Assembly: GCA_030424645.1 (NCBI GenBank) | Contig: JAUHWP010000012.1 | Coordinates: 1-41,772, forward strand | Source of the DNA: Alphaproteobacteria bacterium | Lineage (GTDB): Bacteria; Pseudomonadota; Alphaproteobacteria; Rhodobacterales; Rhodobacteraceae | Direction: 5' to 3' | DNA length: 41,772 nt | Shown here: piece by piece, positions 6,352 through 8,962 of the stretch | Layout: the number at the start of each line of letters is the position of its first letter | Numbering within the stretch: position 1 is the stretch's first letter | Position numbers and translations under genes: made by a program | The notes under the pieces: model-generated | The model's database searches: none | Told to the model about the DNA's origin: nothing | What the model saw: the letters and a program-made list of their open reading frames with translations, nothing else

Positions 6352-6518
6352 AGGTGCCGCCTTTGGCGGAGAATTGGGAAGCCGGTGGAATTCCGGCGCT
6401 GCCCCCGCAACGGTAACGGTGTTGCAACGGGCGCGATCATGACCACTGGGGAAGAGGACCCCCGGGAAGGTATCGCGTTCGGGTCCATTCGGGCCGCACC
6501 GAAGTCCGGAAACCAGCC
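6352..6518 (+). ncRNA. Cobalamin riboswitch (facing right, toward gbcA-like gene)
   Basis: AGGTGCC...GGGAAGCCGGTGGAATTCCGGCGCTGCCCCCGCAACGGTAACGG...GACCACTGG...GAAGTCCGGAAACCAGCC; B12 box is slightly divergent from consensus. Confidence 0.85.
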
Positions 6519-6651
6519 TTGCAAAACGTCAAACCGCGGGTGGCGGTGCGGGCGCTGCCTTTGAGAACGGCTCCTCTGTCGCCGTTGTCGCAGTTCGCCC
6601 GTGCCAGTCATCTGCCCAAGCAAAGCCGCGGGGCGCGGCAGGAGGTCAGAT

Positions 6652-7881
6652 ATGAACACCCAACCGATCAGCGAACTGCTGGCACGGCGCAGGCCGGGTT
6701 ACGCGCTGGAACAGGCCTTCTATACCGATCCGGAGATATTCCGGATGGATATGGAGACCATTTTCTATCGTGACTGGCTTTTTGCCGCCCCTGCCTGCGA
6801 GTTGCCCAAGCCCGGCAGCTATATCACCCATCAAGTTGGCGCCTATGGTGTCGTCATCGTGCGTGGGCAGGATGGTGAGATCCGCGCCTTCCACAATTCC
6901 TGTCGCCATCGCGGATCGGTGCTGTGCAAGGCAGCCAAAGGCACCAATCCCAAGATCGTGTGCCCCTATCACCAATGGACCTATGAATTGGACGGACGTC
7001 TTCTCTGGGCACGCGAGATGGGAGATGATTTCGACCCCAGCCTGCATGGGCTGAAACACGTTCATTGCCGCGAACTGCAAGGGCTGATTTATATCTGCCT
7101 GGCAACTGAGGCACCTGATTTCGATGCTTTTGCCGACGTGGCCAGCCCGTATCTTGCCGTGCATGACCTCAGCAACGCGAAACTCGCCCACGAGACCAGT
7201 ATCGTCGAAAACGGCAACTGGAAACTGGTCTGGGAAAACAACCGCGAATGCTATCACTGCGGAGGCAACCACCCCGGTCTGTGCAGATCCTATACCGATG
7301 ATCCCACGGTGACAGGTGTCGGGGAAGGCGTCACCCCGCCGCACCTGCAAGCGCATTTCGATCGGTTGGAGACACAAGGCTACCCTTCGCAATTCCGCAT
7401 GGCAGACGACATGCAATACAGGTTGGCGCGTATGCCACTGTTGCCCGGTGCCAAGAGCTTTACGATGGATCTGCAACCGGCGGTGACCAAATGGCTGGGC
7501 CGGGTCAGGGACGATACGGCCGGCACGCTGTTGAAATACCACTATCCGACGACCTGGAACCATTTCCTGCCGGATCATTCCATCGTCTTCCGCGTCACAC
7601 CCTTGACCCCCACAACCACCGAAGTCACGACCAAGTGGTTGGTGCACAAGGACGCCGTTGAAGGTGTGGATTACGACTTGCAGCGATTGACCGAAGTCTG
7701 GATCGCCACCAATGACGAGGACCGTCAAGTGGTCGAGGACAATCAGCAAGGCATCAACTCGCCGGTCTATGAGCCCGGCCCCTATTCACCGATCCATGAA
7801 AGCGGCGTGATGGGTTTTGTCGACTGGTATTGCAACACAATGACCCGGCGGCTTCCTTCTGTCGCCGTGGCAGCGGAGTAA
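6652..7881 (+). CDS. gbcA: Rieske non-heme iron oxygenase, glycine betaine monooxygenase oxygenase subunit-like
   Basis: Rieske motif CRHRGSVLC...[46 protein letters not shown]; closely resembles Pseudomonas GbcA from memory. Start taken at [10 protein letters not shown]. Confidence 0.85.
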
Positions 7882-7885
7882 GACG

Positions 7886-8962
7886 ATGCAGGATATGTCG
7901 AACATCCCCGCGCGCGCAATCTGGTCGGATGACGAGATGCTGGAATGTGTCTCGGTCATTCCCGAGGTGCCCAACACGGCGACATTCAGCTTCCGGGCAC
8001 CATCGGGCGCGTTGTTTGATTTCCTTCCGGGGCAGTTCCTGACCCTGGAAATCCCAGTGCCGGGCGGTCCGGTCCATCGAACATACACGATATCATCATC
8101 GCCCTCGCGGCCGCGGTCGATCTCGATCACGGTCAAGGCGCAGGCTGATAGTGTCGGAACGCGCTGGATGCTGGACAACCTGACCCCCGGCACGCGGATC
8201 AAGGCGCTGGGGCCTGCGGGGCTTTTCACGCATCTGAACCATCAGGCGGACAAATATCTGTTCATCTCCGCAGGCTCTGGCATCACGCCGATGATGTCGA
8301 TGACGACCTTCATGTTCGATCTTGGCCTTGAACCCGACATCATCTTTGTCAACTGCACGCGCAGGCCAAGCGAGATCATCTTTCGCCAGCGGTTGGAACA
8401 CATGACCTCTCGGGTGCCGGGGATCGACCTGAAATGGGTGGTTGAATCCCCCGACCGCTTCGCGCCCTGGACCGGTTACCAGGGTCAGTTCAACCAACTC
8501 ATGTTGGGCTTGATGGCGCCGGACTATCTGGAACGCGAGGTCTTTTGTTGCGGGCCGGAACCTTTCATGCAGGCGGTGCGCGAGGCGCTACAGGGGCTTG
8601 GCTTCGACATGGACCGCTATCATCAGGAAAGCTTCCACGCGCCGGTGGAAACCGAAGCTGATATGCCCGAACTGGATGACGTTGTGCCCGACGAGGACAC
8701 CCGTGCCGAGGTCACATTCTGTGCCTCGGGTGTCACCGCCAAGGTGGCGCAAACCGACACGATCCTGGCTGCGGCAAGGGCAAACGGTCTTAACATCCCA
8801 TCAGGTTGCACCTTCGGCGTCTGCGGCACCTGCAAGATCCGCAAGACCGGGGGCGAGGTGCACATGGTCCACAACGGAGGCATTTCGGAAGACGACATTG
8901 CCGAAGGCTATATCCTTGCCTGTTGCTCGCACCCGATCGGCAAGGTCGAGGTGGAGGTATGA
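7886..8962 (+). CDS. gbcB: Ferredoxin reductase component of glycine betaine monooxygenase (FAD/NAD plus 2Fe-2S)
   Basis: HRTYTISSSPS FAD motif, SAGSGITPMMSM, C-terminal plant-type 2Fe-2S CTFGVCGTCKIRKTGG; 4-bp gap after gbcA. Confidence 0.85.
   Translation: MQDMSNIPARAIWSDDEMLECVSVIPEVPNTATFSFRAPSGALFDFLPGQFLTLEIPVPGGPVHRTYTISSSPSRPRSISITVKAQADSVGTRWMLDNLTPGTRIKALGPAGLFTHLNHQADKYLFISAGSGITPMMSMTTFMFDLGLEPDIIFVNCTRRPSEIIFRQRLEHMTSRVPGIDLKWVVESPDRFAPWTGYQGQFNQLMLGLMAPDYLEREVFCCGPEPFMQAVREALQGLGFDMDRYHQESFHAPVETEADMPELDDVVPDEDTRAEVTFCASGVTAKVAQTDTILAAARANGLNIPSGCTFGVCGTCKIRKTGGEVHMVHNGGISEDDIAEGYILACCSHPIGKVEVEV

Follow-up and report, generated by a model that had tools for sequence, protein, structure and literature searches.

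A conserved cobalamin riboswitch in front of a Rieske betaine demethylase operon: a candidate B12-sparing isozyme switch

Introduction

Betaines are among the most abundant marine osmolytes. Here we describe an operon predicted to demethylate them, encoding a Rieske oxygenase and its reductase behind a cobalamin (B12) riboswitch, on a contig of 41,772 nucleotides from an alphaproteobacterium of the family Rhodobacteraceae (JAUHWP010000012.1, assembly GCA_030424645.1; this whole stretch is called the window). Two described oxygenase systems are close to it. The Stc2/Stc4 stachydrine demethylase of Sinorhizobium meliloti (PDB 3VCA) has the same oxygenase-reductase order, and the Cys pair and ligand residues are conserved. 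Its locus differs in that a divergent LysR gene is present and a riboswitch absent (order LysR, oxygenase, stc4, stc3, nodD2), whereas the window operon has no LysR gene and so departs from the LysR-stc2-stc4 arrangement. The GbcAB glycine betaine monooxygenase of Pseudomonas and Chromohalobacter shares the group Vb Rieske family and the reductase architecture, but a pattern scan of three true GbcA loci found no riboswitch.

Aerobic marine bacteria can also demethylate glycine betaine with cobalamin, as described in 2025. Ruegeria pomeroyi does so through MtgB (PF06253), MtgC and MtgD, and the last two also serve methionine synthesis (PMC12478193). This system is probably the B12-dependent alternative to the window operon, and homologues of MtgC, MtgD, MtgE and MttB occur in the window's genome. 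The R. pomeroyi study, however, concerns bacteria without GbcAB; it reports no riboswitch on gbcAB and mentions one in a reference title only.

That cobalamin riboswitches target B12-independent isozymes is well established (PMC3766115, PMC9600662). As in the switches of MetE and class I ribonucleotide reductase (RNR), the enzyme described here would be able to replace a B12-dependent route of the same genome; unlike them, the target is a catabolic Rieske N-demethylase and the aptamer is a dedicated sequence subtype. A preliminary description of this DNA, made from its letters, treated such a pairing as not known to have been reported. Our search of the open-access full-text literature, with subscription papers and databases such as RegPrecise outside it, found no paper in which a Rieske betaine demethylase is connected with a B12 riboswitch.

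Riboswitch and operon

A cmscan search with RF00174 gave a match of 101.9 bits (E = 1.6e-24) on the + strand at 6335-6535. The match exceeds the gathering score of 31.5, runs over the complete model (1-189) and includes all main helices. It ends 116 nt before the ATG of the oxygenase gene at 6652, with no coding gene in between on that strand, and the oxygenase and reductase genes are separated by 4 nt (operon, 6652-8962). The preliminary description had placed a cobalamin aptamer before an oxygenase-reductase pair on one strand with no gene between, which this match confirms. Its upstream placement was correct, but the distance of about 130 nt becomes 116 nt, and its start for the element, 6352, falls slightly within the aptamer. 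The features of the leader and operon are as follows.

6335-6535, + strand: aptamer of the operon's cobalamin riboswitch (RF00174)
6410-6414, + strand: ACGGU, which in this subtype takes the place of the conserved ACUGU (33 of 33 operon leaders)
6503-6518, + strand: variant B12 box AGUCCGGAAACCAGCC (33 of 33 leaders; consensus AGYCAGGAGACCUGCC)
6625-6639, + strand: conserved expression-platform hairpin GCCGC-GGGGC-GCGGC, touching the Shine-Dalgarno site
6640-6645, + strand: Shine-Dalgarno site AGGAGG of the oxygenase gene, assigned from sequence
6652-7881, + strand: group Vb Rieske oxygenase (Stc2/GbcA family), alpha subunit, 409 amino acids (Pfam Rieske, Ring_hydroxyl_A)
7886-8962, + strand: ferredoxin-type reductase (GbcB/Stc4-like), 358 amino acids (FAD_binding_6, NAD_binding_1, Fer2)

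Conservation and exchange of regulators

We call a locus RS+ if a cobalamin riboswitch lies upstream of the Rieske oxygenase gene and RS- if it is homologous and has none. The family sample held 150 genomes, apparently one per genus by their kinship codes, and 39 of them encode a relative of the oxygenase at E <= 1e-60. We scanned the 30 genomes with closer relatives, which have 31 loci, for RF00174. A riboswitch on the same strand lies 79-141 nt upstream of the oxygenase gene at 12 of the 31 loci, one genome per genus (G000, which is the window's genome, G140, G093, G079, G053, G101, G077, G092 at its second copy, G026, G115, G119 and G122). A pattern search of named genomes found the pairing at 21 of the best 80 loci, among them loci of Pacificoceanicola, Sulfitobacter, Shimia, Ruegeria, Phaeobacter, Pelagimonas, Pseudophaeobacter, Leisingera, Marivivens, Loktanella, Roseibium and Rhodobacter. 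With cmscan we confirmed 14 RS+ loci, including those of Ruegeria sp. TM1040 (on a megaplasmid), Phaeobacter gallaeciensis (on a plasmid) and G205, a genome from another family of the same class. Overall, 33 of 92 loci are RS+, in three enzyme clades of Alphaproteobacteria. With about five B12 riboswitches in a genome of about 4 Mb, one would lie within 500 nt of a given gene by chance about once in 1,000 genes; the pairing is therefore not due to chance. The preliminary description had made its reading depend on this conservation, and on that point it holds.

In a tree of 95 enzymes, the riboswitch label falls on 26 members of a 31-row clade, on six members of a 10-row clade and on G205. It is clustered, requiring 3 changes where 21.7 are expected. 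A sister clade has a divergent LysR gene in place of the riboswitch, as does the S. meliloti stachydrine locus. An adjoining GcvA-like LysR gene was found at none of the 33 RS+ loci versus 31 of the 59 RS- loci (Fisher's test, P = 2e-8). The riboswitch thus replaces the LysR regulator of the sister clades, and the two controls are mutually exclusive; in P. gallaeciensis, the riboswitch and an unrelated LysR gene both lie upstream. Betaine-catabolic neighbours (a DgcA-like flavin oxidoreductase, a dimethylglycine dehydrogenase-like gene or SoxAB) are likewise absent from all 33 RS+ loci and present at 23 of 59 RS- loci (P = 7e-6). With both the LysR gene and these neighbours missing, the RS+ operons appear to be under the control of cofactor supply, apart from substrate-linked clusters.

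The enzymes of the gammaproteobacterial Granulosicoccus (loci L119 and L128) are 72-73% identical to the window enzyme and sit within the Roseobacter riboswitch clade, and their loci are RS-. These copies were likely acquired horizontally, the leader being lost. No match to the riboswitch subtype described below turned up in a scan of viral contigs.

Leader hairpin

Nearly all RS+ leaders have a hairpin directly before the Shine-Dalgarno site, which in the window is GCCGC-loop-GCGGC. Over the 46 nt that precede the start codon, the strongest hairpin has a median score of 17.5 in RS+ leaders versus 11.0 in RS- leaders (P = 3e-9); PhaeobacterHF9A and G205 are among the RS+ leaders that depart from the strong hairpin. 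Across 15 distinct versions of the hairpin, all 75 of 75 cells are paired, and 12 are altered on both sides. The covariation score is 0.596 versus 0.171 after shuffling, and none of 500 shuffles reached it. We found no terminator-like U-tract 3' of the hairpin on the + strand, which makes translational control of the operon the likelier mode. A minimum-energy fold of the full leader (6335-6690) did not reliably reproduce the aptamer helices, and we did not use it.

B12-dependent counterpart and the proposed switch

The preliminary description had suggested looking for mttB or mtgB elsewhere in the genome, and the counterpart is there. The window's genome has three PF06253 (MttB) genes, one of them cut by a contig end, a cluster of MtgE, MtgC and DUF1638 genes on contig C157, and on contig C20 an MtgD-like gene near a RamA/AcsV-like activase. 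Next to the MtgD-like gene is a gene for 324 amino acids that looks by eye like a MetF-like reductase and has no Pfam match. No PF01717 (MetE) methionine synthase domain was found in this genome, and few were found in the others. Among the RS+ genomes, PF06253 and DUF1638 occur in 12 of 12 and a stand-alone MtgC in 11 of 12, the exception being G119, which is 84% complete. The three genomes lacking DUF1638 (G089, which is a Salipiger, G046 and G095) are all RS- and also lack a stand-alone MtgC. A truncated MttB gene forms part of a further cluster (L073, contig C93, 1-5573): its C-terminal part lies at the contig end and is followed by a flavin mononucleotide (FMN) oxidoreductase, a trans-3-hydroxy-L-proline dehydratase (exceeding its NCBIfam cut-off) and a second FMN oxidoreductase. 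This cluster is a possible hydroxyproline-betaine route.

We propose that the operon encodes a betaine demethylase that needs no B12 and that a dedicated off-switch responding to B12 controls it, i.e., that this is a B12-sparing isozyme switch, and we put the probability of this reading at roughly 0.62. Plentiful corrinoid would bind the aptamer, and the leader would then fold so as to block the ribosome site. With ample B12, MttB-type methyltransferases would demethylate betaines onto MtgC-cobalamin and tetrahydrofolate. When B12 is scarce, the switch would open, and the Rieske enzyme would demethylate betaine with O2 and NADH, releasing formaldehyde and leaving MtgC-cobalamin to methionine synthesis. 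Cobalamin would be spared for methionine because MtgC serves that pathway too. In this model we infer the ligand, the direction of control and the overlap in substrates. The preliminary description had also arrived at an isozyme switch; the conserved pairing and the counterpart system support it in part, but glycine betaine as the substrate and the link to MetH, both treated below, are not supported.

Three observations weigh against the proposed switch. Of the 18 RS- genomes that have the oxygenase, 15 likewise carry MttB, MtgC and DUF1638 (RS+, 11 to 12 of 12), so their co-occurrence is in agreement with the model but does not discriminate, and we rejected it as proof of isozyme logic. The window's genome retains only class II, B12-dependent RNRs; B12 is therefore always needed, and the switch would serve scarcity rather than absence. 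Finally, in G119 a single riboswitch heads the oxygenase, the reductase and a B12-dependent metH in a row, an order that pure isozyme logic does not predict.

If the model is true, a conserved B12 switch on an O2-dependent alternative would be a new functional class of B12-riboswitch targets. The supply of B12 would then set the route of osmolyte breakdown and its by-product, formaldehyde or methyl-folate. The recurrence of this special form of the switch before the oxygenase pair suggests that many members of the marine Roseobacter group, together with some relatives, go from B12-dependent to B12-free use of betaines when B12 is short.

Enzyme and substrate

Group V oxygenases are recognized by a Rieske CxH...CxxH motif, His/His/Asp iron ligands, a bridging Glu and a Cys-x-x-Cys pair (PMC10952381, PMC7948474). 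The window oxygenase has the signature of the group Vb Rieske quaternary-amine oxygenases, and C84-H86, C104-H107, H202, H207, D357, E199, C200 and C203 are invariant among the sequences compared. Judged from these residues, it is a group Vb betaine N-demethylase, with glycine betaine and proline betaine both possible candidate substrates. It is 73.5% identical to a TM1040 protein (PDB 3N0Q) and 65.5% identical to the protein of the S. meliloti Stc2 locus, versus 46-48% for true GbcA, and it matches the Stc2 structure 3VCA with 623 bits. Against the GbcA model NF058607 it scores 500 bits, under the cut-off of 670, whereas true GbcA loci score 811-840. The Stc2-locus protein scores 498.5, and for this reason we dropped the hidden Markov model score as proof of substrate. 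The reductase is similarly under the cut-off of the GbcB model NF058606 (377 versus 500 bits). Being closer to Stc2 than to GbcA, the enzyme does not have glycine betaine established as its substrate. The GbcA-GbcB label of the preliminary description is only partly right: the family and the reductase architecture agree with it, but its glycine-betaine assignment is not supported. A second Rieske gene of the window's genome, on contig C109, was considered as a second copy and proved only a distant relative (88.9 bits). Whether adjoining flavin oxidoreductases demethylate dimethylglycine or N-methylproline was also considered; no NCBIfam model decides this.

The same figures give some weight to another version of the switch, in which the enzyme demethylates stachydrine (proline betaine) and the B12-dependent counterpart is an MtpB-like MttB paralogue instead of MtgB. 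The identity to the S. meliloti protein, the nearly equal NF058607 scores and the 3VCA match all point this way, as does the MttB gene next to trans-3-hydroxyproline dehydratase and two FMN oxidoreductases. However, Ala223 of the Stc2 pocket is Thr in the riboswitch clade; the LysR clade that is associated with a dimethylglycine-dehydrogenase-like gene also has Thr there. The operon neighbourhood, moreover, has no proline-betaine genes. We regard stachydrine as a tentative assignment, possible but not the one we favor.

Aptamer subtype

The isozyme switch we propose would use an aptamer that is distinct in its core. In 33 of 33 operon leaders, ACGGU replaces the family ACUGU and AGYCCGGAAACCAGCC replaces the family AGYCAGGAGACCUGCC; the 14 other B12 riboswitches compared alongside have the family ACUGU and GGAGACC. 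Relative to the RF00174 consensus, the window aptamer is a full-length match with every main helix, but its core has ACGGU, CCGGAAACCAGCC, and AAUUGGGAA in place of AAaaGGGAA. The core signature ACGGU...CCGGAAACCAGCC is present in all 33 analysed leaders. Among 68 other B12 switches it occurs once, at a site that seems to derive from this locus. We then extended the comparison to 102 distinct B12 riboswitches, extracted by their coordinates. The variant box occurs in 35 of them, namely 34 operon leaders (including that of Ruegeria sp. Ofav3-42, L122) and locus L234 in genome G139. The other 67 do not have it, and only one of these has GGAAACC. At L234, an operon-type hairpin is followed by a relative of the small open reading frame (ORF) found behind the window's third riboswitch, and for these reasons L234 seems to have arisen as a copy of the locus that then lost its oxygenase genes.

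Two of the changes in the variant box are compensatory (one U-A pair becomes G-C, and one A-U pair becomes U-A), with the core pairs assigned by complementarity. The third, G to A in GGAGACC, is at a position unpaired in the Rfam consensus. A core altered in this way where the aptamer is otherwise most conserved, shared by the 34 leaders and the derived copy and found in none of the other 67 switches, could mean that the riboswitch senses another corrinoid form (e.g., methyl- or hydroxocobalamin) and so signals how far the corrinoid pool is methylated. The changed pairs preserve the structure, though, and GGAAACC is also found in one ordinary-looking switch; we consider an altered ligand unlikely. 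A core tuned to methylcobalamin, for example, an intermediate of MtgC and methionine synthase, is an equally doubtful form of the idea; it would let the cell read the load on the shared methyl-carrying corrinoid protein and shift betaine demethylation to O2 chemistry when the carrier is needed for methionine.

Five other loci (L233, L239, L240, L249 and L253) have B12 riboswitches with a deviating CAGAAGACCGG box before genes that look by eye BluB-like. These are perhaps a second gene-specific aptamer subtype.

Flanking elements

Two further B12 riboswitches flank the operon, neither of them mentioned in the preliminary description. Other B12 riboswitches of the window's genome head genes for B12/cobalt uptake and cobW/cobN, which counts in favor of the proposed switch. 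The flanking features are as follows.

6015-6207, - strand: divergent B12 riboswitch that formerly headed an nrdHIEF operon, outside the Rieske operon (128.8 bits)
5621-5956, - strand: nrdF C-terminal remnant (83.6% DNA identity to the end of nrdF in G093)
9013-9225, + strand: third B12 riboswitch, after the operon (126.7 bits)
9345-9647, + strand: conserved ORF of about 100 amino acids without an assigned family (54% identity in G093, 43% in Hoeflea; no Pfam match)
9748-13519, + strand: two-gene cobalamin-dependent methionine synthase MetH (PRK09490, 511 and 1569.5 bits)

The third riboswitch lies upstream of the B12-dependent metH by way of the small ORF. The N part of MetH, with the homocysteine domain (9748-10809), overlaps the C part with the pterin, B12 and activation domains (10751-13519), and this split MetH coexists with another cobalamin-dependent methionine synthase, of the MtgCDE type, encoded elsewhere in the genome. 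The preliminary description had offered MetH-linked one-carbon metabolism as a partner of the operon, and we considered whether metH is directly under the operon's riboswitch. Because metH has a further riboswitch, the conserved small ORF between and possibly its own promoter, we rejected such direct control. A reading that would explain the adjacency is one-carbon supply: at low B12, formaldehyde from the oxygenase would feed methylene- and methyl-tetrahydrofolate for methionine. Indeed, metH adjoins the operon in RS+ genomes G000, G093 and G119. But this adjacency is not enriched (3 of 33 RS+ versus 2 of 59 RS- loci, P = 0.35), and an extra riboswitch follows the operon in G000, G093 and G140, with the small ORF preceding metH in the first two and an ABC transporter ORF following in G140. 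Nor would methyl supply be the bottleneck under B12 limitation. We therefore think a one-carbon role quite improbable.

Most improbable of all is that a rearrangement of the nearby nrd riboswitch left this one behind as a bystander, with the operon's promoter in the 116-nt gap: although a divergent nrd-type riboswitch is only 128 nt away and nrd genes are somewhat enriched beside RS+ loci (7 of 33 versus 3 of 59, P = 0.03), most RS+ loci have no nearby nrd gene, the subtype signature and compensated hairpin are specific to the operon leader, and no sigma-70-like site was seen in the gap (weak evidence in these bacteria).

The nrdF remnant lies directly behind its riboswitch and matches only the last third of NrdF, at positions ~215-324. 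The counterpart of this riboswitch in G093 precedes a complete nrdHIEF operon. From this comparison, nrdH, nrdI, nrdE and most of nrdF appear to have been deleted or misassembled in the window's genome.

The family of about 100 amino acids recurs behind B12 riboswitches (9345-9647 in the window, L038 at 11371-11631, L163 and L234) and has a C-terminus rich in RRGG...GRRR. At L234, its member stands directly behind an oxygenase-type riboswitch.

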